NCBI GenBank assembly: GCA_947589125.1
Contig: CANPZZ010000008.1
Coordinates: 1-40,356, forward strand
Direction of reading: 5' to 3'
From: an uncultured Lachnospiraceae bacterium
Lineage (GTDB): Bacteria; Bacillota; Clostridia; Lachnospirales; Lachnospiraceae
Length of the DNA: 40,356 bases
Positions within the stretch are counted from its first letter, which is position 1; every line of letters begins with the position of its first letter. Of the stretch, positions 20,025 to 36,890 are shown in pieces. The translations under genes were made by a program, and so were the position numbers. The notes under the pieces are model-generated. The model was not told the DNA's origin. It worked only from the letters and a program-made list of their open reading frames with translations, and made no database searches.

Positions 20025-21170
20025 ATGGCCGGTAATATCCCATATTATGAACAAAAAGACCGAGAAAACACGCTTCGTCTGCGCGAAATGATCAAGGAAC
20101 TGCCGCCCTTCTGCGTCGATTTCTTCCGCGGGATCGAGCCGCAGACGTCATCCAGGACCAGAATCGCCTATGCTTACGATATGAAGGTTTTCTTCGAATT
20201 CCTGAAAAAAGAAAACCCTATGCTCAGTTCCCTGGATATCCGTGATATTACGCTGGAGCATCTTGATCAGATCCGTGCAGGCGATCTGGAAGAATACATG
20301 GAATATCTGAAATACCGCTATGACGATAAGAATGCGGAAGTCGTCGTCAACAAAGAACGCGGCATAATGCGGAAAATCTCCTCTTTGAAAAGCTTCTACA
20401 ACTACTTCTACCGCCAGGAACGGCTGAAGAACAATCCGGCAGCTCTGATAAAGCTGCCCAAGCTGCATGAAAAAGAGATCATCCGACTGGATATCGACGA
20501 AGTGGCCATGCTGCTCGACACCGTGGAAAACGGTGATTCCCTGACAAAGAAGCAGCGGGAATTTCACGAAAAAACACAGGTAAGGGATCTGGCGCTCATG
20601 ACGCTTCTTCTGGGAACCGGGATCCGTGTATCAGAATGCGTTGGTCTGGATATCAGCGATGTGGACTTCAAAAACAGCGGGATCCGAATCCACCGCAAAG
20701 GCGGCAAGGAAGTTACGGTCTATTTCGGCGATGAAGTTGAAGAAGCTCTGCTTGAATATCTGGAACAGCGCAGGCATATCGTTCCGGCCGAGGGGCACGA
20801 AAACGCACTCTTCCTCTCTCTGCAGATGAAACGGATGTCCGTGCGCAGTGTAGAAAATCTGGTAAAGAAATATGCCAGGATCGTCACACCGCTCAAAAAG
20901 ATCACTCCGCATAAGCTTCGCAGCACCTACGGTACAACTCTGTATCAGGAAACAGGCGATATCTATCTGGTTGCGGATGTTCTCGGCCATACCGATGTTA
21001 ATACGACCAAGAAGCACTATGCGGCTCTGGATAATGAACGCAGACGCAGCGCACGCGACAAAGTCCGTCTCCGCGAAGAATCTCCTGCCCTGCCATCCGC
21101 CGTGGCCGCCGTTATACAGGCAGGGCCGGCAGATAACGCGGCCATGGATGACTCAGGCAGCGATGACTAA
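20025..21170 (+). CDS. Tyrosine recombinase, XerC/XerD-like
   Basis: The protein has 381 residues with the N-terminal SAM-like DNA-binding domain (about 30-145) and a C-terminal catalytic domain. Catalytic residues are visible as Arg in GTGIRVSECVGLD, Lys in HRKGGKE, HKLRSTYG (His and Arg), LGHTDVNTT (second His) and Tyr in KKHYAALD. It is longer than standard Xer proteins (about 300) owing to an N-terminal extension and a polar C-terminal tail. Chromosomal context beside ttcA, and the lack of phage genes or attachment sites, suggest a resident Xer-like protein. Whether it resolves dif sites is unknown. Confidence 0.88.
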   Translation: MAGNIPYYEQKDRENTLRLREMIKELPPFCVDFFRGIEPQTSSRTRIAYAYDMKVFFEFLKKENPMLSSLDIRDITLEHLDQIRAGDLEEYMEYLKYRYDDKNAEVVVNKERGIMRKISSLKSFYNYFYRQERLKNNPAALIKLPKLHEKEIIRLDIDEVAMLLDTVENGDSLTKKQREFHEKTQVRDLALMTLLLGTGIRVSECVGLDISDVDFKNSGIRIHRKGGKEVTVYFGDEVEEALLEYLEQRRHIVPAEGHENALFLSLQMKRMSVRSVENLVKKYARIVTPLKKITPHKLRSTYGTTLYQETGDIYLVADVLGHTDVNTTKKHYAALDNERRRSARDKVRLREESPALPSAVAAVIQAGPADNAAMDDSGSDD

Positions 21171-21213
21171 ACAAATTGCCGATTACATTACCGATTATCG
21201 TTCAATCACTTGA

Positions 21214-21236
21214 TATAATATTCTTTCGATATTATA
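21214..21236. terminator. AT-only hairpin between convergent recombinase and LysM genes
   Basis: TATAATAT and ATATTATA form a perfect 8-bp stem with a 7-nt loop in the short gap between convergent genes. It is a weak candidate for a bidirectional terminator. Confidence 0.35.
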
Positions 21237-21237
21237 T

Positions 21238-21537
21238 TCATTCATCTGCGCCGTACATTATGGTCAGATAACATCCCTCGTGAATCGTATCGCCATTCAG
21301 ACGATTCATCTTCTTAAGCAGCTTGATATACTCCTGGGTCGATAATCCCAGTTCCGGAGCATACTTATGGGCAATGCTCCATAAAGAATCTCCGTCGTTA
21401 ATCTCGATACTGGTATAATAAACGGCCTTACCGGTTTGTGCCGGCTCCTTCGCCATCGTATTCATCAGAGTGCTTCCGCAGAAGCCAAAACCAAGCATAA
21501 CGATTGCCGCGGCTGCAAGAAAACTCCTTCTCATCAT
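21238..21537 (-). CDS. YneA-like LysM protein, probable SOS-induced division inhibitor
   Basis: The protein has 99 residues with a signal/anchor segment (about 5-22) and one LysM domain (about 43-93: INDGDSLWSIAHKYAPE, then CYLTIMYG). The start is supported by GGAGG 6 nt upstream. It is divergent from lexA, and its promoter is overlapped by LexA-box-like palindromes. This is the layout of B. subtilis yneA-lexA, where YneA delays division during DNA damage. The sequence is not close enough to YneA to name it; the assignment rests on domain, size and context. Confidence 0.75.
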   Translation of the reverse strand: MMRRSFLAAAAIVMLGFGFCGSTLMNTMAKEPAQTGKAVYYTSIEINDGDSLWSIAHKYAPELGLSTQEYIKLLKKMNRLNGDTIHEGCYLTIMYGADE

Positions 21538-21552
21538 ATCGCGCCTCCATGC

Positions 21553-21579
21553 CGAACGTATGTTGCGAACAAATGTTCT
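21553..21579. promoter_or_regulatory. Two overlapping LexA-box-like palindromes in the yneA-like leader
   Basis: CGAACGTATGTTGC (21553-21566) and CGAACAAATGTTCT (21566-21579) share one base. The second contains a perfect GAAC-N4-GTTC. Both match the Gram-positive LexA box CGAAC-N4-GTTCG and lie downstream of the LysM-gene -10, where a bound repressor would block transcription. Confidence 0.8.
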
Positions 21580-21589
21580 GTATGTTCTT

Positions 21590-21617
21590 ATTATACCATC
21601 GAACAGATGTTTGTCAA
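21590..21617 (-). promoter_or_regulatory. Promoter of the yneA-like gene
   Basis: On the minus strand, a perfect TTGACA (21617-21612) and a perfect TATAAT (21595-21590) are separated by 16 bp. A LexA-box-like site occupies the spacer and enters the -35. Confidence 0.8.
21600..21613. promoter_or_regulatory. LexA-box-like site inside the yneA-like promoter
   Basis: CGAACAGATGTTTG has the GAAC-N4-GTTT form. It lies between and partly over the -10 and -35 of the LysM gene. Confidence 0.7.
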
Positions 21618-21636
21618 GATATTTTTTGATTTTTTT

Positions 21637-21673
21637 CGAACAAAAGTTTGCATTTTAGCCGAACATATGGTAA
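21637..21673. promoter_or_regulatory. Two LexA-box-like sites in the lexA promoter region
   Basis: CGAACAAAAGTTTG (21637-21650) and the half-degenerate CGAACATATGGTAA (21660-21673) lie 45-80 bp before lexA. A TTTGCA/TAAGATAAT-like promoter may overlap them. They imply autoregulation of lexA. Confidence 0.65.
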
Positions 21674-21717
21674 GATAATAGCAGAAACAGAATATGTGTT
21701 CTGATTGGAGGTAAATT

Positions 21718-22332
21718 ATGGCACAGGGGAAGATCAGTGCGAAACAGCAGGAGATACTGGAATATATTAAAGAGACGATTCTGAAGAAAGGATACCCGCC
21801 CGCGGTCCGTGAGATCTGCGAAGCGGTTCATTTAAAGTCCACTTCTTCTGTCCATTCCCATCTTGAAACCCTGGAGAAGAACGGCTATATCCGCAGAGAT
21901 CCGACAAAGCCCAGAACGATCGAGATCATCGACGACTGTTTTAATCTGACCCGCAGAGAGGTCGTTAATGTTCCGCTTGTCGGTACAATCGCAGCCGGCC
22001 AGCCAATCCTGGCTGAGCAGAATATTGAGAATTATTTTCCGATTCCTGTAGAATTTTTACCGAACCAGGAGACATTTATGCTTCGCGTGAAAGGCGACAG
22101 CATGATCAATGTCGGCATCTTTGACGGCGACCAGATCATTGTCAAGAGCCAGCCTTCCGCCCGCAACGGAGAGATCGTCGCCGCTCTTGTTGATGATTCC
22201 GCGACGGTGAAGCGTTTTTATAAGGAGAACGGCCACTACCGTCTCCAGCCCGAGAATGACAATATGGACCCGATCATCGTAGATCATGTCGATATTCTCG
22301 GCGTCGTGATCGGCCTGATTCGTATGATGTAA
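21718..22332 (+). CDS. lexA: SOS transcriptional repressor LexA
   Basis: The protein has 204 residues with an N-terminal winged helix-turn-helix (about 1-65; YPPAVREICEAVHLKSTSSVHSHLETL in segments) and a C-terminal S24 autoprotease domain. The self-cleavage bond is Ala93-Gly94 in GTIAAGQP. The catalytic pair is Ser128 in GDSMI and Lys165 in ATVKRF. It represses DNA-damage genes until RecA-stimulated cleavage. GGAGG lies 7 nt upstream of the ATG. The LexA-box-like sites in its own upstream region and in front of the LysM gene support a local SOS circuit. Confidence 0.97.
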   Translation: MAQGKISAKQQEILEYIKETILKKGYPPAVREICEAVHLKSTSSVHSHLETLEKNGYIRRDPTKPRTIEIIDDCFNLTRREVVNVPLVGTIAAGQPILAEQNIENYFPIPVEFLPNQETFMLRVKGDSMINVGIFDGDQIIVKSQPSARNGEIVAALVDDSATVKRFYKENGHYRLQPENDNMDPIIVDHVDILGVVIGLIRMM

Positions 22333-26654: not shown

Positions 26655-26963
26655 TTAAGCGTTGATCTTGTCGATCTTAACCTGGGTGAACAGCTGTCTG
26701 TGACCGTTCTTCTTGTGATATCCGGTCTTTCTCTTGTACTTGTAGACGATCACTTTCTTCGCTTTCCCCTGCTTCTCAACAGTCGCGGAAACGCTGGCTC
26801 CCTCGACAGTCGGGCATCCGACCTTGAGTTCTCCGTCACTCACCGCAAGCACCTGGTCAAAGGTCACGGTTTCGCCAGCTTCTGCTTCAAGCTTCTCAAT
26901 CCTAATGACATCGCCCTCGGATACCTTATACTGCTTACCGCCGGTAGCAATAATAGCGTACAT
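26655..26963 (-). CDS. rplU: 50S ribosomal protein L21
   Basis: The protein has 102 residues from the Met of [14 protein letters not shown], with AGGAGG just upstream; the ORF-track extension runs into the leader. The C-terminal [21 protein letters not shown] (in part) is the L21 signature. It is the first gene of the ribosomal/GTPase cluster and has its own promoter and a structured leader of about 100 nt. Confidence 0.97.
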
Positions 26964-27070
26964 ATATGGCACCTCCTCTTTATCATTACTCGCCAACTAC
27001 GGTGTCCCCGCAGCCTGTCCGCAAAGCGGAACCGGCCCGGAATCTTACAGAACCTCATTGTGCGGCACAC
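26964..27070 (-). ncRNA. Probable L21 leader (5' UTR autoregulatory structure)
   Basis: About 100 nt of non-coding, GC-rich sequence lie between the rplU promoter and start codon. It contains a TCCGC-TTT-GCGGA hairpin and a conserved-looking end (CCGTAGTTGGCGAGTA) before the ribosome-binding site. Firmicutes rplU mRNAs often carry an L21 leader at this place. The match is by position and general form; I could not test a covariance model. Confidence 0.45.
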
Positions 27071-27135: not shown

Positions 27136-28293
27136 TTAATTATTTCTGGAAAAATGCATGTAATCCGGTTCGTCGCTCCATGCTCCTCCCCATGTGAAGC
27201 CGGCTTCGGTAAACAGCTTATAGCAAAGATCGTTCCTGTCGATCTTATGCGGGAAATCCAGGCTGCGATCCATATAGGCACGGCCATTCTCGGGCGCACA
27301 GACTTCTCCGCCATTAGTCACATACGGATTATACAACGGGTTGATATCGATAGCCACCCCATACGCATGACGGGACAGACTGCTGGTTCCGGCTACAGTC
27401 CTGTAATTAAAACAGGATGTATTATTGTCGGAACTGGACGCGTCGTCATCCCCGCCGTACTCATCTACAAGAACCATCTTCTCGATCGGATATTTCGCCG
27501 CGTAGAGCCGATGGAATATAGAGAGAAGGTCGCTGCTGATCGACCGGTTGCTGATAAGCTCTCCGACGCGGATATTTCCATCAAAATCATAATACAGAAC
27601 CCGCATATACCGCAGACTGCTTATCGGGACCGGACAGCCGTCGCTATATGATTTGCCGTAAATACGTTCAAATATATGATCCGTAATCTCGCTCTGCCAG
27701 AACAGATTATCTTCCCCCACAAGTTCTATCTGTTCAATCGTCAGTATATCGCCCACAGCGACTGTCGGCATTGCCGGTACGGTCTCCTCAGCAGTATCAG
27801 CCGTCGGTTCTTCAGAAGATAGTTCTTCAGAAGACGCTTCGCTCTCATCCAGACTTTCCGGAAGCATTTCCTCTGTGACTTCTGATGTCATTGCCTCCGT
27901 CTGGACGCGGTCAGATCCGTCCCCGGAAGAAGCCAGGACGGCAGCCGGCAAGGAATTCGCCGGCTGATCCGCCAGTATCCGTATGGGTTCTGATGCCGTT
28001 TCCTCTGCCGCAGCCGTCTTGTAGGTAGCTTTCTGATAACTGCCGCCCAAAAGTCCGGATGCGGTGATCAGAACCGCTATAACCACCGGCACCATCATCC
28101 AGACCGCTGTCAGAGATATTCCTCTGCGGCGTTTTTTTACCGCCCGTTTTCTTTGAGATGATCTGCGCTGCCGGTATCTTCCGCTTGGATAACTGTAACG
28201 CAGATCCACGGTGTGGGAATATTTCACCATTTCCCCTCTATGGCGGTTACGGTTCGTTCGTCTTCTTCTTCGGAAGCCATTAGCGCTATACAT
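27136..28293 (-). CDS. Membrane-anchored M15-type metallopeptidase (DD-carboxypeptidase-like), copy 1
   Basis: The protein has 385 residues from the ATG that overlaps the end of the DltA-like gene by 8 bases. A basic, Arg/Tyr-rich cytoplasmic tail of about 60 residues precedes one membrane segment (about 64-83), then a Ser/Glu-rich spacer, then the M15C/VanY-like domain. Zinc ligands are expected at H309 and D316 in SRHAYGVAID and H380 in DYMHF; D377 takes the place of the catalytic acid. It should trim D-Ala or cleave peptide stems. Its catalytic half closely resembles the lipoprotein copy at 34671. Spacing makes it the last gene of the dlt-like operon. Confidence 0.88.
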   Translation of the reverse strand: MYSANGFRRRRRTNRNRHRGEMVKYSHTVDLRYSYPSGRYRQRRSSQRKRAVKKRRRGISLTAVWMMVPVVIAVLITASGLLGGSYQKATYKTAAAEETASEPIRILADQPANSLPAAVLASSGDGSDRVQTEAMTSEVTEEMLPESLDESEASSEELSSEEPTADTAEETVPAMPTVAVGDILTIEQIELVGEDNLFWQSEITDHIFERIYGKSYSDGCPVPISSLRYMRVLYYDFDGNIRVGELISNRSISSDLLSIFHRLYAAKYPIEKMVLVDEYGGDDDASSSDNNTSCFNYRTVAGTSSLSRHAYGVAIDINPLYNPYVTNGGEVCAPENGRAYMDRSLDFPHKIDRNDLCYKLFTEAGFTWGGAWSDEPDYMHFSRNN

Positions 28294-29797
28294 AAAGTTC
28301 CTTCAGACGTTTTCTGTCGATTTTTCCGTTGGCATTGCGGGGCATCTCATCAAGATAAATGTATTTGTTAGGAAGCATATACCTAGGAACACGTCCCGCA
28401 AGAGTTTTCGACAGGATTTTCTTGTCTGTCTGTGTTCCCGTATACAAAAACAAAATCATCTGCCGGCCTCTGTCATAGATGCAGGCGCACTCTTCAATTT
28501 CAGGCATCAGACCTGCCGCGGCTTCGATCTCTCCAAGCTCGATCCGATAGCCCAGCCGCTTGATCTGATAATCCAGCCGGTCATGGTACAAAAGCTCTCC
28601 CCGGTCATTATAGCTGACAAGATCACCAGTCCGGTAAATGATCTCCGGATAAGCGCTGTTCAGCGGATTCTGAACAAATCTCTCCGCTGTCCGTTCCGGA
28701 TTGTTATAATAGCCGCTGGCCAGCGTACAGCCGCGAACGCATAATTCGCCTTCCTTTTCGCTGCCCGGAAGCACCAGCTGGTTCTGCTCATCCAGAACCA
28801 TAATGTCGATATTGCCGCAGGGCCATCCGATCGGAAGGGACTCATCGTCAGCAAACTCACGGTCCAGATTGTAATATGTACATACATATGTCTCCGTAGG
28901 TCCATACATATTGCAGTAAAGCGCGTCCGGCACATATTTTCTCCAGTAATTCAGCTGCTTCATGGGCATCACTTCTCCCGCGAAGAAAACGTAGCGGAGG
29001 TATTTGGGCACTTCGGCCTCAAAGCCGTGCAGATTGGCTACTACACTCAGCGCGAAAGGAACCCAGAAGACAGCTGTTACATGATGCCCGTTAAGAAATG
29101 CAATCAGATTGGCCGGAAACGTAAAGTTTTCCTGCGGGATGATCACTGTCCTGCATCCGAATTTCAGCGGGCAGTAAACATCATGATCAGAGACATCAAA
29201 ATAAAGCGGAACCTGGTTGCCGAGTACATCTGAAGGCCCAAAATCATATTCCTTCTCCAGCCACTGCATATTATTGATCACGACGCGGTGGCTGACGACA
29301 ACCCCTTTGGGGACGCCTGTGGAACCGCTGGTAAACAGAATATACAACGGATCGGAATCAACCTGGCGGCGGCGCACCGCGTGTAAGAGCTCCGTATCCG
29401 TCGGTCCGCGCACCAGATCGTCAAACAGCAGGAGCGGACATCCCGCGTCAAGGCTCTCTGCCAGCGTCATCTGCGCCGGTTCTGTAATAACCGCCGCCGG
29501 TTTCAGAACGGAAAAGATCGTCCGGATCCGGTCAGCCGGCATGGTAACATCGATGGGGCAATAACAGCATCCGCCGTAAACAGCCCCCAAAAAAGCGACG
29601 ATCATGGACGCGCTCTTTTCCATCAGTACCGCGACAGGTCTCTGAAAAGCATCAAGAGCCGCGATCCGGCTCCCGATGGCGCGGGCAGCCTCTCCGGTCT
29701 GAGCAAATGTATAGCTTTGTTTTACGTCTTCATATGCACAATGATCCCGAAAGCGTCCTTCGGACGCCTCCAGGAACTCCAGTACGCTTCTGATCAT
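28286..29797 (-). CDS. DltA-like amino-acid adenylating enzyme (carrier-protein ligase)
   Basis: The protein has 503 residues, the same length as DltA. Adenylation-domain motifs are complete: TSGSTGVPKG (156-165), MYGPTET, YRTGD (388-392), RLGYRIELGEIE, and NANGKIDR with catalytic K492. It should activate an amino acid and load it onto the carrier protein encoded upstream. In DltA proteins the segment FCGEV has a Cys that helps select D-Ala; here it is FAGEV (Ala273), and the nearby pocket segment SFDLSVMDLY reads YFDVSDHDVY. The substrate may therefore not be D-Ala. Gene order and partners place it in an envelope acylation operon. Confidence 0.85.
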   Translation of the reverse strand: MIRSVLEFLEASEGRFRDHCAYEDVKQSYTFAQTGEAARAIGSRIAALDAFQRPVAVLMEKSASMIVAFLGAVYGGCCYCPIDVTMPADRIRTIFSVLKPAAVITEPAQMTLAESLDAGCPLLLFDDLVRGPTDTELLHAVRRRQVDSDPLYILFTSGSTGVPKGVVVSHRVVINNMQWLEKEYDFGPSDVLGNQVPLYFDVSDHDVYCPLKFGCRTVIIPQENFTFPANLIAFLNGHHVTAVFWVPFALSVVANLHGFEAEVPKYLRYVFFAGEVMPMKQLNYWRKYVPDALYCNMYGPTETYVCTYYNLDREFADDESLPIGWPCGNIDIMVLDEQNQLVLPGSEKEGELCVRGCTLASGYYNNPERTAERFVQNPLNSAYPEIIYRTGDLVSYNDRGELLYHDRLDYQIKRLGYRIELGEIEAAAGLMPEIEECACIYDRGRQMILFLYTGTQTDKKILSKTLAGRVPRYMLPNKYIYLDEMPRNANGKIDRKRLKELYV

Positions 29798-29808
29798 ATC
29801 GGTCTCTC

Positions 29809-30549
29809 CTATTCATTCTCCGTCACTACCAGATATTCGATTCCGTCAACGATATCGTTGGTGGTATAGATGATGAGTTCGGTCCTGCCGTCCGTCATGC
29901 GGTAAACGCCAAATTCTTCCGTATAATTATCCTTGTAAGCTTCCCTGACGTCATCCGCGGTGGAACCGATCCTGATGCCTTCTGCCGTGGCGACCGTATC
30001 GTCAAGAACATATACGGAGGCAACGCAGTCTTTGCCGTCTGCAGGATATGTACTAAGTTCAAAACCTTTGTAGGTATAAACGATGTCTTTGCCCTGATAA
30101 GCGCAGCTGTCCTGCTCAAAGGTCTTTTCAGGCTCTCCCAGTTTCTCAAGGATCGGGGCGGCCTCGGCTCCCATAATCACCGTAACATCCCCAACCACAA
30201 ACGTATATCCGTCCGCTGACGCTGCCGCCGCTGCGGTCGTTTCTGCTTCTGCGGTCTCTGCCTCTGTAGTCTCGGCTTCTGTAGTCTCTGCCTCTGTAGT
30301 CTCGGCTTCCGTGGTTTTCGCTTCTGTTGTCTCGGGCGCCGCCGTTGTCTCCGCTTCCGTAGTCTTCGCCGCTTCTGTCTCTGCCTTTGTCGTCTCCTCC
30401 GCCGTCGTTTCAGCCGTTTCGGCCTCCGTCGTCACAGCCGTTGTCGCTGCCGTATCGTTCGCCCCGGAGGACCGCGCACAGGAAACAATCACTATCGCCG
30501 CCGCCAGAACAACACCCGCTGTCAAAACATTTCTTACGGGTTTTTTCAT
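29809..30549 (-). CDS. Lipoprotein with Thr/Glu pentapeptide repeats and a small C-terminal domain
   Basis: The protein has 246 residues. The signal ends in lipobox IVSC (Cys24), so it is anchored outside the membrane. Residues about 30-112 are a low-complexity stalk of TTEAE-type repeats rich in Thr, Glu and Ala. The C-terminal domain (about 113-246) has short motifs such as KLGEPEKTFEQDSCAY and GIRIGSTADDVREAY, reminiscent of BamE/SmpA-like folds. Function is unknown. It lies 11-13 bp from both neighbours inside the dlt-like operon, so it probably acts with the acylation machinery or senses its substrate. Confidence 0.82.
   Translation of the reverse strand: MKKPVRNVLTAGVVLAAAIVIVSCARSSGANDTAATTAVTTEAETAETTAEETTKAETEAAKTTEAETTAAPETTEAKTTEAETTEAETTEAETTEAETAEAETTAAAAASADGYTFVVGDVTVIMGAEAAPILEKLGEPEKTFEQDSCAYQGKDIVYTYKGFELSTYPADGKDCVASVYVLDDTVATAEGIRIGSTADDVREAYKDNYTEEFGVYRMTDGRTELIIYTTNDIVDGIEYLVVTENE
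30237..30420 (-). repeat. 15-bp minisatellite encoding the lipoprotein stalk
   Basis: The unit GTAGTCTCNGCNTCN and close variants recur in tandem in phase with the reading frame, giving TTEAE pentapeptides. Copies near 30266-30310 are almost identical, the outer ones diverged. Length variation by slippage is likely. Confidence 0.85.
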
Positions 30550-30562
30550 AATTTTCTCCTCC

Positions 30563-31627
30563 TTATTCCTCTGTTTTAAATTGCTTCAGAAAGCCTGTCC
30601 GCGCAAATTCTTCTTCCTGCTGCGCTTTCATGCTGTCGTAATATGATTCCTTCTCCGCCCAGACAGCCGCCAGACCGCTGTCGTCCCGTCGGTCGGCTGC
30701 GCCGGCATCATAAAGCAGCGGTCCAAGGTAACGGGACACCTTCTCGGCGCCGTAAACATTCATATGGAGTCCGCCGTCGTAAGTATCCTGAGAAAAATCC
30801 AGTCCAATCTCATCGATCGCGCTGATACAGTTAATATAGGTCAGGTCGTGTTCTTCCGCATATGCAGCGATCTGTTCTTCCCACTGATCATGCCAGGCAG
30901 GATATAGGGACGGGGCCTTCATCAGAAGAAAGGTAATTCCGTTTTCTTCACAAAGTGTCCGCATCCGCTCAAGATATTCCCAGGCCCTGTCGTCAAACGA
31001 ATAGTCAGCAAGTCTCCGCACGGTGGGGAAATCCCCGGCAGGTCTCACATCGGCACGCATATAATAGCCGTTGTGGGACACCTGGTTCCTGTGGAAATAA
31101 TACCGGAAATCATCTGCTTCCAGCTGATTCCACCGCGAATGGAAACGCAGCAGCGGAAAGATATATTCGATCATATGCTCGTCGTCCATCGCAGTGGCAC
31201 GAATGGCATTCCACTTGGAGGAAGACCAGCGCATACCGTCAAGCGTCATTCGGTTATAGGTCTCATTGGTCTGCTCATACTGCTGCATTGCAGAGACACT
31301 GAACACAACGACCTTAGGGGTCTCCTTTTTCAGCGTATCTTCCAGCAGGTAATAGGATTGGGCGATCAGCTGCTGGGCGCTTCCGCGGATGTAGCTTGTA
31401 ATCCCGTATTCACGGAAAAGCACGACCGGGGAAATATTCTCGTAGACCTCACAGTCTCCAAGAAAGATCACATCATGGTCCGTTGTTTCCTTATAGTATT
31501 CCTGAATGAAATTTCCCTCTACCACCAGCCCCATATACTTGGGAACCAGAAGACGCTGCAGGCCCGCAAGCACGACAACCGAACATATAACAATCACCAG
31601 AAGCGTCAAAAAAAACTTTCTTTTCAT
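30563..31627 (-). CDS. SGNH-hydrolase-like / DltD-like protein with Cys in the nucleophile position
   Basis: The protein has 354 residues with one N-terminal membrane segment (about 5-23) and an extracytoplasmic SGNH-like domain. The first block reads VIFLGDCEVYE: the usual GDS Ser is Cys59. The last block, DGGLHMNVYG, supplies D284 and H288. Together with an MBOAT protein, such proteins (DltD, AlgJ/AlgX-like) complete transfer of an acyl group to a surface polymer. A Cys nucleophile would use a thioester intermediate, or the protein may be non-catalytic. It lies 11 bp after the MBOAT gene. Confidence 0.8.
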   Translation of the reverse strand: MKRKFFLTLLVIVICSVVVLAGLQRLLVPKYMGLVVEGNFIQEYYKETTDHDVIFLGDCEVYENISPVVLFREYGITSYIRGSAQQLIAQSYYLLEDTLKKETPKVVVFSVSAMQQYEQTNETYNRMTLDGMRWSSSKWNAIRATAMDDEHMIEYIFPLLRFHSRWNQLEADDFRYYFHRNQVSHNGYYMRADVRPAGDFPTVRRLADYSFDDRAWEYLERMRTLCEENGITFLLMKAPSLYPAWHDQWEEQIAAYAEEHDLTYINCISAIDEIGLDFSQDTYDGGLHMNVYGAEKVSRYLGPLLYDAGAADRRDDSGLAAVWAEKESYYDSMKAQQEEEFARTGFLKQFKTEE

Positions 31628-31638
31628 TATGCCGCCTC

Positions 31639-33222
31639 CTAGAACTGATTGTAAATAAACTGGCTCGCGTCATAACCCTGTCCGTACGCACCGGTCAGCA
31701 GCACGACCAGAAACAACCCGAAAACCGCGGCATACTGCAGCCAGACCGGTTTCCGGTCAAGCCATTCGCGATAGCCGTTTCCCTTTTGGAACACAGCGCC
31801 AAGCGCCATGACCGCGATACTGATAAGAAGCAGTATCCAGTCCGCATATCCCAGTCCCAGGGACGCCATCCGCCCGTCCGTCAGCTGTGACAGCGACGAG
31901 GAGGTAAGCATATTGCCAAACATGGAAAATACCGTTAAAAACGGATAATATTCAAACATCTCCAAGCAGCAGAACAGGAAAAAGGTTCTGACTATACCAA
32001 ACCAGCGGTAACCCTGTGATCCGGTGAAGGAAAAGCGTTTCCGGAACGCGCGGTATACGCCGGAAAGCTCGGCGGAGATCAGCATGACGATACAGTTCGC
32101 CATCCCCCACGCAACGAAATTCCAGGACGCCCCGTGCCATATGCCCGCCGTCAGCCATACCACGATATTGGCCACATAAACCGGCGCCTTCTGCCCTGCT
32201 TTACGGCCCAGAAGCTTTCCTGTCACTGCCGATATCTTCTTGCTGAACCTGCTGGTGGATACAGGGAAGAAAATATATTCCCTGAGCCACTGCATCAGCG
32301 ACATATGCCATCTGCGCCAGAATTCCGCCAGGCTTGCGGACATAAACGGCCGGTCGAAATTCTCAGGGAGCTTCACTCCGAAAATCTGGGCGACGCCTAT
32401 CACAATATCGATTCCGCCCGCAAAATCCGCATACATCCAGACAGTATATCCTACCATCCCCAGAAATACGTAGATTCCGTTATATTCGGATGGAGAAGAA
32501 ATAATTGCGGTAACGGCCGGGCCCAGGCGGTCAGCGATCACAAGTTTTTTAAAATAACCCCAGAGCATCCGCTCCGCGCCGAGCTTCAGCCGGCGCATAT
32601 CAAATGTATGCGAGGCAAACAGATCCTCTTTGATCTGATCAAACCGGCTGATCGGTCCCGCAACCAGCTGCGGAAAAAAAGAAACAAACAAAGCGAACCG
32701 GGCCGGGTTCTGTTCCGGCTCGTATTTTCCGTTATATACATCGATCAGATATCCCATGGACTGGAATGTATAATAAGAAATGCCAAGCGGCAGGAGCCAG
32801 CCGACATAGTTAAAATTCAGAGTGGAATGGAACAAATGCAGCAGTCCGTTTATATTCTCCAGGGCAAAATTCGCATATTTCAATACAGCCAAAATCCCGA
32901 AATTCATGAAAAGCCCGCATAAGAGCAGCCGCTTCCTGCGGCGTTTCACTGTCTGATTATAGGCTTTCTTCTGCTCGCGGTCAAACCCCTGTTCCTTTAT
33001 ATACCGTCTGGCGTCTGCGGAGATCCTTCCCATGCGGCGGGCCAGCAGCCAGGTAGTAAACGTTGTGATCAAAGGATAGAGGATATACAGCGGGCCTCCG
33101 CACAAATAAAAGAGATAACTGGCGGCAAGCAGTAATATCCACTGGAATTTTCCGGGAACCAGATAGTAAATGACCGTCAAAAGGATCAGGAACAGCCCAA
33201 ATTCATAGGATACCAGAAGCAT
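31639..33222 (-). CDS. MBOAT family membrane acyltransferase (DltB/AlgI-like)
   Basis: The protein has 527 residues with about a dozen hydrophobic helices. MBOAT hallmarks are FFPQLVAGPISRF (182-194), FWRRWHMSL (301-309) and the catalytic His363 in AGIWHGASWNF. Family members pass an acyl group from a cytoplasmic donor across the membrane toward an external acceptor. Immediate neighbours are a carrier protein (1-bp gap) and an SGNH-like protein, the same functional trio as dltC-dltB-dltD. Overall sequence looks as close to AlgI-type proteins as to DltB. Confidence 0.92.
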   Translation of the reverse strand: MLLVSYEFGLFLILLTVIYYLVPGKFQWILLLAASYLFYLCGGPLYILYPLITTFTTWLLARRMGRISADARRYIKEQGFDREQKKAYNQTVKRRRKRLLLCGLFMNFGILAVLKYANFALENINGLLHLFHSTLNFNYVGWLLPLGISYYTFQSMGYLIDVYNGKYEPEQNPARFALFVSFFPQLVAGPISRFDQIKEDLFASHTFDMRRLKLGAERMLWGYFKKLVIADRLGPAVTAIISSPSEYNGIYVFLGMVGYTVWMYADFAGGIDIVIGVAQIFGVKLPENFDRPFMSASLAEFWRRWHMSLMQWLREYIFFPVSTSRFSKKISAVTGKLLGRKAGQKAPVYVANIVVWLTAGIWHGASWNFVAWGMANCIVMLISAELSGVYRAFRKRFSFTGSQGYRWFGIVRTFFLFCCLEMFEYYPFLTVFSMFGNMLTSSSLSQLTDGRMASLGLGYADWILLLISIAVMALGAVFQKGNGYREWLDRKPVWLQYAAVFGLFLVVLLTGAYGQGYDASQFIYNQF

Positions 33223-33223
33223 T

Positions 33224-33454
33224 TTATTCGTCCCCTTCCAGGTCCCTGATCATCGCCCATATACTGGCAGCAGAATTGAAAATTTCAGGCACGATCTTCA
33301 CCGGCGGAATCTTTACATCAAAATTATCTTCAATCTGTGTCACCAGCATGACTACTTCAAAAGAAGTAAGAATCCCGTCGTCGACAAGCGTATTGCAGTT
33401 TTCATAATCGGCATCCGGATTGATGCCCTCCAGAATCTCTATTAATTCATCCAT
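33224..33454 (-). CDS. Acyl/aminoacyl carrier protein (DltC-like)
   Basis: A 76-residue acidic protein with carrier-protein fold. The attachment site reads DDGILTSFEVVML: Ser31 is where 4'-phosphopantetheine should be joined, but the preceding residue is Thr30 where carrier proteins nearly always have Asp (DS motif). It should carry the aminoacyl group made by the DltA-like enzyme to the MBOAT protein. The ATG is 13 nt from an AAAGG site, a rather long spacing. Confidence 0.85.
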   Translation of the reverse strand: MDELIEILEGINPDADYENCNTLVDDGILTSFEVVMLVTQIEDNFDVKIPPVKIVPEIFNSAASIWAMIRDLEGDE

Positions 33455-33498
33455 AATCGCTTAAATTCATCCTTTCTGTTACTGTCATCAATCGTGTA

Positions 33499-34590
33499 TC
33501 ACGGCGTACTCGGATATAGGGAACGGTCAAAAGCAAAGCATCCGTTGTGCTGGGCTGAATAATTCAGCATCTGCGCATCCGTCCACAGACAGAAATACCC
33601 GCCCGCTCTTCTGGGCGTTGCATCAAAGTGATACCAGGAACCGTCATCCATCTGTACAAGGTTCCAATAATGGTCATTATCCGTATAACGGATCACCTCG
33701 ATACTGGGGATGCCCGCCCTCACAAGCAGCTCCTGCGAAACTGCAAAGTAAGTGTAACAGTCGCCATGACGTTTACGAAGACCCTGATAGGCCTCTTCCA
33801 CCCAGTCTCTTGTGGCGGAATGGCCGTTGTAACTGAAATTCGCGCGGATCCACGCATAGATTTTCTCTGCTTTTTGCTGCCTTGACATAGAATTATTGAT
33901 CAGACCTGACAGGATGGAGTCGGCCATAGCATCGACCGTTTTACGGAATTCCGTCTTTTCAGAATCAGGAATATCGACCGTAACCGCCTTATACGGCCAT
34001 ACCGCCTCGCCTTCACCGTTACTGTTAAAGTTATAAATTACGCCGTTAAGTGTTCGCTCTGCGTCATGAACCATGGCGCCGCTTTCTTCATCAAAATAAT
34101 AAGTATGTCCGTCAATCTCAACAAGACCGGTCTTCATATAACCAGTCTCATCAAAACAATAGTTTTCACCCTTAATCTGTTTTTGCGTATTAGTAACGTA
34201 ACTTCCGTCAGAAAGACGGTAACTCCAGCCGATATCATCCAATAACCAGCCAGAGTAGCCGCTTGAAAGATTTGTGGCCTCACCACTTCCGTTAAATAAC
34301 CAAACCCCCCCGGAGATTACCATGGTCTGGTTTGCACGCATGGTTCCGTCTTCCGTTCGGAGATAATAGGTTTTGCCCCCGTCGCTCAGCCATCCGTGAT
34401 GCGCATATCCATCCTCATCAAAATAGTACCAGGGTCCGTTCTCTCCGTCCTGATACCATCCATGTATGTCCGTACCGTCGTCGTCACGGCACCGTGTATT
34501 AATTCCGTCGTTATATAATGTGCCAGCCAAAGATGAAAAACTGAAAATAAATGAAAAAAATACTGAAAAAAATAGTAACCGTACCTTCAT
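33499..34590 (-). CDS. Secreted protein with cell-wall-binding-like repeats and a transglutaminase-like domain
   Basis: The protein has 363 residues with an N-terminal signal peptide (about 1-22). Residues 40-195 contain Trp/Tyr/Gly-rich repeats of choline-binding/cell-wall-binding type (GPWYYFDEDGYAHHGWL; DGHTYYFDEESGAM). The C-terminal part (about 235-350) is transglutaminase-like with a full Cys-His-Asp triad: C278 in HGDCYTYFA, H307 in DNDHYWNLV, D323 in WYHFDATP. Such domains act as proteases, peptidases or transamidases on wall components. It is the first gene after a strong promoter and probably the lead gene of the dlt-like operon. Confidence 0.85.
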   Translation of the reverse strand: MKVRLLFFSVFFSFIFSFSSLAGTLYNDGINTRCRDDDGTDIHGWYQDGENGPWYYFDEDGYAHHGWLSDGGKTYYLRTEDGTMRANQTMVISGGVWLFNGSGEATNLSSGYSGWLLDDIGWSYRLSDGSYVTNTQKQIKGENYCFDETGYMKTGLVEIDGHTYYFDEESGAMVHDAERTLNGVIYNFNSNGEGEAVWPYKAVTVDIPDSEKTEFRKTVDAMADSILSGLINNSMSRQQKAEKIYAWIRANFSYNGHSATRDWVEEAYQGLRKRHGDCYTYFAVSQELLVRAGIPSIEVIRYTDNDHYWNLVQMDDGSWYHFDATPRRAGGYFCLWTDAQMLNYSAQHNGCFAFDRSLYPSTP

Positions 34591-34637
34591 AAACCGTTAT
34601 CCATCCTCTTCGTATATTAGCAAAATAAATCTTTTAA

Positions 34638-34666
34638 ATTATATCGCCCGCTGTATGATAAGTCAA
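34638..34666 (-). promoter_or_regulatory. Promoter of the dlt-like operon
   Basis: On the minus strand TTGACT (34666-34661) and a perfect TATAAT (34643-34638) are separated by 17 bp. It lies directly after the M15 lipoprotein stop and about 48 bp before the transglutaminase-protein start. Confidence 0.78.
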
Positions 34667-34670
34667 TACT

Positions 34671-35570
34671 TTATTTTCTGAGTTTCTCGAAGTGCATGTA
34701 ATCCGGCGTACTGGACCAACTGCCGCCCCAGGTAAACCCGGCTTCGACAAAAAGTTTATAACACTGGTCGTTTTCATCGATTTTATGAGGAAAATCCCGG
34801 TCTCTCCTCATATAAGCCGCTCCCAGCGCCGGTACACAGCTTCCCCTGTCGGAAGTGATATACGGATTATAAAGAGGATTGATATCGATGGCCACTCCCC
34901 GCGCATGTTTGGACAGTCCATTCCCGTCAGTGGTACTGCGGTAATTAAAACAGGATGTATTATTATCCGAACTCGAAAGCTTGTCGTCCGCATCGTATTC
35001 ATCGATCAGGATCACTTTTTCGATAGGATATTGGCAATCGAAAAGCTGACGGAAAACATAAAGCAGATCATCGCTGATCAGTTCGTTGCTTACCAGTTCA
35101 CCCACCCGCACATTTCCGTCAAAATCATAATGAAGAATCTGAATATAACGCAGCTGATCCCGCAGATTACATTCCTCTTTATAGGATTTGCCGTCCATAC
35201 GGGCAAAAATCTCGTCAGATATTCCGCTCTGCCAGAAGTAGGAGTCTATATCTGCGGTTTCAAGGGCTTCCTGAGACAGAATCTGCCCGGGTTCGGTATC
35301 GCGCGGAAACGGAAGAACTTCGCTTACCGCCCGTTCTGTTTCTGATGAAACGCCGTCTCCGTCCTGAGCATCCGGCATCTGGTTCTGCATTGTCTCGGGT
35401 ACAACCTCATTGGAACCGGGCGCTATTGTTTCATAGGATAGATGTTTATCCAAACCCAGAAGCTCATGCGGTTTTATGCCGCATCCGCCAAGGAACAGGG
35501 CAAGAACCGCGCTGGTAAGCACTGCCGTTATTCTTAATGTATCCTTTTTCGGACCGCCGTATTTTCTCAT
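34671..35570 (-). CDS. M15-type metallopeptidase lipoprotein (DD-carboxypeptidase-like), copy 2
   Basis: The protein has 299 residues. The signal ends in lipobox LGGC (Cys30), so unlike copy 1 it is lipid-anchored. The catalytic domain has H222 and D229 in SKHARGVAID and D290/H293 in DYMHF, with the shared block SSSDNNTSCFNYR. Its catalytic half aligns almost without gaps to copy 1 at 27136. Its GGAGG overlaps the last codons of rng and the ATG lies 6 bp after the rng stop, so it is probably transcribed with the radical SAM-rng operon and not with the dlt-like operon that follows. Confidence 0.88.
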   Translation of the reverse strand: MRKYGGPKKDTLRITAVLTSAVLALFLGGCGIKPHELLGLDKHLSYETIAPGSNEVVPETMQNQMPDAQDGDGVSSETERAVSEVLPFPRDTEPGQILSQEALETADIDSYFWQSGISDEIFARMDGKSYKEECNLRDQLRYIQILHYDFDGNVRVGELVSNELISDDLLYVFRQLFDCQYPIEKVILIDEYDADDKLSSSDNNTSCFNYRSTTDGNGLSKHARGVAIDINPLYNPYITSDRGSCVPALGAAYMRRDRDFPHKIDENDQCYKLFVEAGFTWGGSWSSTPDYMHFEKLRK

Positions 35571-35576
35571 CCTTTT

Positions 35577-36890
35577 TCACCTCCATTGCTCATGCAGCGG
35601 TTTTCTTGTTTTTTTTCTGGTGAGTTCTGCTAATCCAAGCCTTGTCATATCAACAACCGATACCTTTACCGGATCACCGGAACAGTATTCTTCCAGTTTC
35701 CGCATCAGTTCTTCCCGGTCGACGGCTGATTCCATATTGATGAAATCGACCAGAATGATCCCCGACAGGTTCCGGAGACGGATCTGTCTCGCCGTCTCCC
35801 TCGCTGCCTCCAGATTGATCATGCGGACCGTGTCGCGCATGGTCTTACGGCCCGTAAATTTGCCGGTATTCACATCGATAACCGTCATGGCCTCTGTCTG
35901 CTCAATAACCAGATAGGCGCCGGAAGGAAGCCATACGCGCTTCTGAAGGGCGTCCTGAAGGTTCTTCTCGATGGAATACAGCTTTGACAGCGGAACCAGC
36001 GGATCCTTATAAAGGCGGAGCCGGCCGGCCATATCCGGCTGTTCCTGTGTCAGATGCGCGTTCAGCATCTGGAAAATATCTTCGTCGTCCGTCAGTATCT
36101 CGTCGGCTGTCTGGGCGTCACGGTCCCGCAGCCTGGACACGCAGGAAGGAACTTCTTCGTAAAGACGGCTGAAACAGGTACGGTGAGGAGCCGACGCAAG
36201 GATCTGTTTCATCCGCTCCGTCAGCCGGTTCATTTCCGTAAGGATCTGCTCCGGCGGCGCCTGATAGGCAGTTGTCCGCACGATCAGACCAAACGTCTCC
36301 TCCTTTGCGGGGCGAAGGAATTCTGTTGTTTTCTTCTTCCAGTCATTGTCACTGATCTTACCGGAAAAACGGATATAATTCTTCCTGCCGGAAGGTTCCG
36401 CCGATAAGACGCAGTAGCGGCCGGTAAGGGTAAGCTCAGAGGTAAGTACCGGATCTTTTGTCTTAACCGCGTCTTTCAGCACCTGAACGACGATCTCATC
36501 GCCGGAACGTAAGGGGCGCGGCGTTTTTTTTGCCGTGTCTTTCGTTTCCATGCAACCAGGGAGCCGGCAGCACTCTTCCTGTAGTTCCATGCTGGCAGGA
36601 CGCCAGTGACGCTCCGCCTGTATCTCCTCTTTGCCGGAAATTCGCGCCGGTATCCGGGACGCAAGCCACGGTTCCGGGTTGGCGTCCAGACTGTAATAGC
36701 CGGTAACGCCTCCGCCCAGATCCACGAACGCAGCGTTGATGTTCTGCACCACATCTTTCACTTTGCCAATATAAATACTGCCCAGGTTCGACGGCTGCGG
36801 ATCTTCAAAATCCATCTGGACCGCTTTCATATCGTCCATAAGGGCGGTCAATATCCGCCCGTCAAGCCGGGTAATAATCAGTCTGTTCAA
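35577..36890 (-). CDS. rng: Ribonuclease E/G family endoribonuclease
   Basis: The protein has 437 residues, near RNase G length. The S1-like region (NLGSIYIGKVKDVVQNINAAFVDLG in segments) is near the N-terminus. The catalytic Asp residues are visible in MTVIDVNTGKF and IILVDFINM. The long C-terminal scaffold and the CPxC zinc-link of RNase E are missing, as in other clostridial members. It processes or degrades RNA, cutting 5'-monophosphate substrates. The start overlaps the upstream DUF2344 gene by 4 bp. Confidence 0.93.
   Translation of the reverse strand: MNRLIITRLDGRILTALMDDMKAVQMDFEDPQPSNLGSIYIGKVKDVVQNINAAFVDLGGGVTGYYSLDANPEPWLASRIPARISGKEEIQAERHWRPASMELQEECCRLPGCMETKDTAKKTPRPLRSGDEIVVQVLKDAVKTKDPVLTSELTLTGRYCVLSAEPSGRKNYIRFSGKISDNDWKKKTTEFLRPAKEETFGLIVRTTAYQAPPEQILTEMNRLTERMKQILASAPHRTCFSRLYEEVPSCVSRLRDRDAQTADEILTDDEDIFQMLNAHLTQEQPDMAGRLRLYKDPLVPLSKLYSIEKNLQDALQKRVWLPSGAYLVIEQTEAMTVIDVNTGKFTGRKTMRDTVRMINLEAARETARQIRLRNLSGIILVDFINMESAVDREELMRKLEEYCSGDPVKVSVVDMTRLGLAELTRKKTRKPLHEQWR

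Follow-up and report, generated by a model that had tools for sequence, protein, structure and literature searches.

A conserved Lachnospiraceae gene set for a probable MBOAT-SGNH pathway of carrier-dependent envelope acylation, beside Dlt and PatA/AlgI

A stretch of 40,356 nucleotides from an uncultured Lachnospiraceae bacterium (assembly GCA_947589125.1, contig CANPZZ010000008.1; referred to here as the window) carries an operon of seven minus-strand genes. Six of them form a conserved set, encoding a transglutaminase-like protein (TGL), a carrier protein (ACP), an MBOAT acyltransferase, an SGNH-fold protein, a lipoprotein-like protein (LIPO) and a ligase (LIG). This operon probably encodes a carrier-dependent MBOAT-SGNH pathway of envelope acylation, which would represent a third architecture beside the Dlt and PatA/AlgI systems. 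The window corresponds to one chromosomal contig from a genome of Lachnospiraceae type (2.5 Mb, 219 contigs, 88% complete), and the analysis is based on its sequence and on predicted structures. The gene set appears to be real, widespread and undescribed; searches of the open-access literature turned up no account of it, nor of any SGNH transferase of the Cys type, which is weak evidence of novelty.

The six genes were found to co-occur in more than 100 loci from Lachnospiraceae, other Clostridia and Paenibacillus/Gottfriedia, where this and the following counts treat related sequences as if they were separate and many loci lie on short contigs. In a first sample, MBOAT relatives of several types were detected at E <= 1e-60 in 167 of 299 family genomes, and the neighbourhoods of the best 60 were read; the closest ~45 of these contain the ligase, carrier, MBOAT, SGNH, LIPO and transglutaminase genes mostly together. 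A second sample of 80 loci, many of them short contigs, was collected from titled genome records with a profile of the Cys-type SGNH protein and contained SGNH in 80, MBOAT in 76, LIG in 72, LIPO in 71, TGL in 67 and ACP in 67 loci. Its Lachnospiraceae members include Oribacterium, Roseburia, Mediterraneibacter, Pseudobutyrivibrio and Mobilitalea, and beyond this family it covers Oscillospiraceae, a Tissierellia bin, Gottfriedia endophytica, Paenibacillus glycanilyticus and P. lupini. The full order TGL-ACP-MBOAT-SGNH-LIPO-LIG was recovered in 23 of 28 further loci that belong to the window's type; in another three, LIPO is the one gene without clear detection, and contig ends interrupt the remaining two. 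A larger sister branch mostly shows the order TGL-(racemase)-LIG-ACP-MBOAT-SGNH-LIPO, and the maintenance of the set through rearrangement is good evidence for a single functional system. Because the ligase is close in sequence to adenylation domains of non-ribosomal peptide synthetases (NRPS), it might be thought that ligase and carrier serve to make a small metabolite, non-ribosomal or acyl, that has nothing to do with the wall, with MBOAT and SGNH as mere neighbours. This is very improbable, since the six genes stay linked across families in differing orders and the set contains no condensation domain, thioesterase or further NRPS module.

At E <= 1e-90 the system is present in 58 of the 299 sampled Lachnospiraceae genomes, representing about a fifth of the sampled genera, and canonical DltA is rarer (13 of 299 genomes at E <= 1e-120, eight above the cut-off). 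A phylum-wide sample of 399 genomes gave three strong matches, all from the window's family and including its own genome, as well as two weak ones, so that the wide distribution reported above rests on the SGNH-profile scan of titled records.

The system resembles Dlt (DltXABCD) in being a Gram-positive operon for a ligase, a carrier, an MBOAT and an SGNH protein with an FxYxxF tyrosine shuttle. An earlier note on this DNA had proposed a non-canonical Dlt-like pathway, and the sequence comparisons largely bear this out; neither of the two findings that the note had named as counting against it, a canonical placement in phylogenies (examined for ligase and MBOAT) and a lack of neighbourhood conservation, was obtained. 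LIG (28286..29797) is a stand-alone adenylation-domain ligase (PF00501/PF13193) that reached 265 bits against the DltA model TIGR01734, far below its cut-off of 559.85. The 76-amino-acid DltC-like carrier (33224..33454; weak PF00550 match), whose phosphopantetheine serine in ILTSFE is kept in 53 of 53 relatives, scored 18.8 bits with TIGR01688 (cut-off 52.35) and 29.5 bits with NF003464 (cut-off 68). MBOAT (31639..33222; PF03062) scored 157.9 bits against the DltB equivalog model (cut-off 375), and has 527 amino acids as compared to about 385 in DltB. Trees of ligase and MBOAT, built by a quick method with support from the Shimodaira-Hasegawa-like approximate likelihood ratio test (SH-aLRT) only, placed DltA and DltB in separate long-branch clades (99% and 100%, respectively) with the window proteins outside. 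Gene order differs as well, and the window set adds the transglutaminase and lipoprotein-like genes.

Canonical Dlt systems of the same family served as a control. In nine loci from the 13 DltA-matching genomes, DltB was always 382-404 amino acids long and free of the shuttle motif, DltD always contained GSSE, and a small DltX-like open reading frame (ORF) ending in F[IV]Y..F was always present (one of two scanned matches Pfam DltX). The DltA binding pocket reads DLMVLCTAVK in five of the nine, and all nine have Cys at pocket position 301, the position associated with a preference for D-Ala in DltA. The family thus has canonical Dlt in its familiar form, from which the window system departs in every one of these features. 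Canonical DltA, DltB and DltD were detected neither in the window's own genome, at 88% completeness, nor in a 98%-complete genus-mate.

It is conceivable that the operon is nonetheless a diverged ordinary dlt operon that attaches D-Ala to the same polymer as DltABCD, with rearranged genes and an MBOAT protein into which the DltX motif has been fused. The four functions are identical, and in a genome without a detectable canonical dlt this role may need filling. Several PF00884 proteins, from a family that is not specific to lipoteichoic acid (LTA) synthase, are present in this genome and possibly include an LTA synthase, and a TagF-type polymerase (PF04464) was not found there. However, this explanation is unlikely given the separate, supported clades of DltA and DltB, a Cys-type SGNH protein that PF04914 does not detect, and a ligase pocket (DVHFFAMVCK) that differs from that of same-family DltA at 8 of 10 positions and varies even among near relatives.

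The catalytic His of MBOAT, in a WHG motif, is kept in all 61 aligned relatives, and 59 of the 61 end in a C-terminal FxYxxF motif, which reads FIYNQF in the window. This hexapeptide has been shown biochemically to act as an acyl-Tyr shuttle in PatA and, on a separate microprotein, in DltX (PMC12148441). In the window system the motif is part of MBOAT itself, whereas DltX is a separate protein in Dlt, and the gaps of 1-44 bp in the window leave no space for a separate DltX ORF. MBOAT branches with the PatA/AlgI type, away from DltB, and shares with PatA/PatB and AlgI/AlgJ/AlgX the C-terminal motif and a separate SGNH partner. However, MBOAT/SGNH pathways besides Dlt have no carrier protein and evidently use acyl-coenzyme A as donor (PMC12148441), whereas the window set has a conserved carrier and ligase, and the SGNH nucleophile position is occupied by Cys. 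The window's own genome encodes three additional MBOAT proteins (loci L001, L002 and L003) whose C-termini bear FIYFxF-type motifs, and these fall outside both the DltB and the window clades.

The SGNH-fold protein (30563..31627) has an N-terminal membrane helix, and its AlphaFold model (predicted local distance difference test score, pLDDT, 92.9) gave 35 Foldseek matches at E <= 1e-3, which are mostly SGNH enzymes including DltD; PatB was also matched. Its Pfam match lies below the gathering score, it does not match PF04914 (DltD), a family without any match in its own genome, and a profile search of PDB with the SGNH alignment returned no true match. Among 134 aligned SGNH partners, 123 have Cys at position 59, within a block I of G-D/N-C-E (G-D-C59-E in the window), and 11 have Ser there; His288 is invariant (134/134), and D284/D281 are the candidate acidic residues in the window protein. 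Cys is found in all 123 members of the window's SGNH clade, and Ser-type partners are confined to loci whose MBOATs branch outside the window clade. In the model, Cys59 directly follows the first strand (53-57) and would occupy the place of the Ser nucleophile of this fold, the residue found in DltD.

The Ser-type Lachnospiraceae loci share ligase, carrier, an MBOAT with the C-terminal motif and SGNH with the window system but differ in the Ser of block I and in having no transglutaminase or lipoprotein gene. Their ligase pockets read DAIRIGIVCK or DVKILSLNCK (e.g., L075, L081, L085, L082 and L094). These uncharacterised ligase-carrier-MBOAT-Ser-SGNH loci (L075, L081, L085, L082, L084, L087, L089, L093, L094 and L095) form an observation in their own right, and the open-access literature yielded no description of carrier-dependent MBOAT loci of the Ser type.

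TGL (33499..34590) is a secreted transglutaminase-like protein (PF01841) with choline-binding-type wall repeats (PF19127, PF01473), which belong to the window's type. All 104 relatives compared keep its Cys278-His307-Asp323 triad, so it is probably an active enzyme. LIPO (29809..30549) is secreted, has a lipobox-like IVSC and a Thr/Glu-rich linker, and matches no Pfam family; the model of its C-terminal domain shows a tandem alpha-beta4 fold (pLDDT 95.3) with only weak Foldseek matches in PDB (4ifa, YfeY and YjgB). In one locus (L045:501-2036) a single ORF of 511 amino acids contains fused SGNH and LIPO domains, which suggests that both act together. TGL and LIPO are co-inherited with the Cys form of SGNH.

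These data also allow for a different division of labour, in which SGNH is not the final transferase, Cys59 has a structural or regulatory role, and the last bond, possibly an amide, is formed by the transglutaminase after it has received the acyl group. The invariant triad of TGL, its co-inheritance with the Cys-type SGNH and its absence from the Ser-type relatives speak for such a scheme. It is nevertheless rather improbable, because neither His288 nor the block I position varies, the SGNH fold is that of acyl-transferring enzymes, and TGL varies widely in length and accessory domains among relatives, unlike a shared docking partner.

As to the substrate, two branches were distinguished by pocket position 239 of the ligase. 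The window's branch has His at this position and no racemase, and its pocket varies among close relatives; for DVHFFAMVCK we know of no code that it matches with confidence, and no substrate is claimed. The sister branch has a racemase gene of the Asp/Glu family (PF01177) beside or close to the operon, and its ligases have Lys at position 239, a residue also present in known glutamate codes. Racemase and Lys239 together suggest that the acyl group of this branch is probably an acidic amino acid of the Asp, Glu or cysteate type, perhaps in the D form. All ten racemases scanned scored at or above the cut-offs of both TIGR00035 (amino acid racemase) and NF052483 (cysteate racemase, CuyB); the label "cysteate racemase" is not adopted here, as the broader TIGR00035 fits equally. 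Two operons of Paenibacillus (L173 and L182) each have a pair of racemase genes of this family nearby, which are divergent and lie on opposite strands.

Based on these features, the carrier-dependent pathway can be envisaged as follows. The ligase would adenylate a carboxylic acid and load it onto the carrier as a thioester. MBOAT would then carry the acyl group across the membrane to the Tyr within FIYNQF at its own C-terminus, on the outer face, and an acyl-Tyr on MBOAT's own motif would make DltX unnecessary. The SGNH protein would accept the acyl group from the acyl-Tyr onto Cys59, again as a thioester, before passing it to a surface polymer, and TGL, which in the window's type would bind to the wall, and LIPO would probably act on or steer this last step. 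The acyl group would probably be an acidic amino acid in the sister branch and a different small acid in the window's branch. Thioesters react with amines more readily than esters, and we speculate that amide bonds could be formed in this manner. The complete version of this scheme, namely, an MBOAT that is fed by a carrier and delivers the acyl group through its own Tyr shuttle to a Cys-type SGNH thioester, perhaps to make amides, with acidic amino acids added in the racemase branch, is a tentative proposal and less likely than not.

Some observations weigh against this interpretation or limit its support. A second cysteine of SGNH, C226, is invariant and also present in the Ser-type relatives, which may leave room for a structural role of C59. 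The link between Cys, TGL and LIPO (TGL and/or LIPO genes in 105 of 106 Cys-type loci with ligase and in 0 of 10 Ser-type loci with ligase) speaks for the scheme but corresponds to one or few evolutionary events, so that these counts are not independent. Similarly, all 62 loci with a racemase have K239 ligases and none of 27 H239 loci has one, which is in favour as well, but this link is largely one evolutionary event and a simple Fisher test overstates the association. The earlier note had assumed an amino acid as substrate, which is borne out only in part for the window's branch. The window itself keeps the pocket Asp235, the residue that binds the alpha-amino group. Several close relatives carry Val, Ala or Asn in its place, as in the genus-mate pocket VIHFFIMVSK, and the pocket sequences thus fit poorly with a fixed alpha-amino-acid substrate; the acyl group of the window's branch may not always be an alpha-amino acid.

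With respect to the locus itself, eight minus-strand genes lie between RNase G (35577-36890) and rplU (26655-26996). The seven closely spaced genes described in the earlier note, in the order TGL, ACP, MBOAT, SGNH, LIPO, LIG and M15b, were all confirmed as ORFs. They are separated by 44 bp (TGL-ACP), 1 bp (ACP-MBOAT), 11 bp (MBOAT-SGNH), 13 bp (SGNH-LIPO) and 11 bp (LIPO-LIG), with an 8-bp overlap between LIG and M15b. The sigma-70-like promoter site proposed upstream of TGL (34638..34666, minus strand; TTGACT-17-TATAAT, 11 of 12 consensus matches) was likewise found. Matches of this kind are frequent in the window (22 observed versus 11.2 expected), but this one falls within the 80-bp gap (34591-34670) immediately upstream of the set. 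Rfam gave no match in the window. The eighth gene, M15a (34671..35570; PF13539), had been overlooked, as had the FIYNQF terminus of MBOAT and the active-site Cys of SGNH; it starts 6 bp after RNase G and is likely to belong to the upstream transcription unit.

M15a is a paralogue of M15b (27136..28293), a membrane-anchored M15-type carboxypeptidase-like protein (PF13539, Peptidase_M15_4). Of the three wall-directed partners that had been considered built into the operon, TGL and LIPO are conserved, but M15 is not part of the core: among the 27 H239-type loci at least 17 have an M15 peptidase, none was seen in the sister branch, and this restriction to part of the window's sub-branch marks them as accessory. 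The coupling to wall trimming or cross-linking suggested in the same context may exist. M15a is found at the equivalent site in L108, L114, L117, L120 and L121, and in L108, L114 and L121 both paralogues flank the operon at equivalent sites between RNase G and rplU. Elsewhere in the window, at 20025-22332, the sign of the GC skew switches near 21 kb, where genes converge and an XerC/D-like recombinase and lexA lie alongside; this region could mark a replication terminus, but a search for a dif site near the switch with two dif-like patterns gave no match.

By the features analysed in this work, the system joins the carrier use of the Dlt design with the built-in shuttle of the PatA design and is a member of neither. 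The clade-wide exchange of Ser for Cys at the nucleophile position of SGNH provides a clean test case for acyl-transfer chemistry. If acidic amino acids are indeed added in the racemase branch, the cell surface would become more negative, which is the opposite of D-alanylation. Since the system is commoner than canonical DltA in the sampled family, it may be a common route of surface modification in gut commensals, with possible effects on resistance to antimicrobial peptides and on host recognition.

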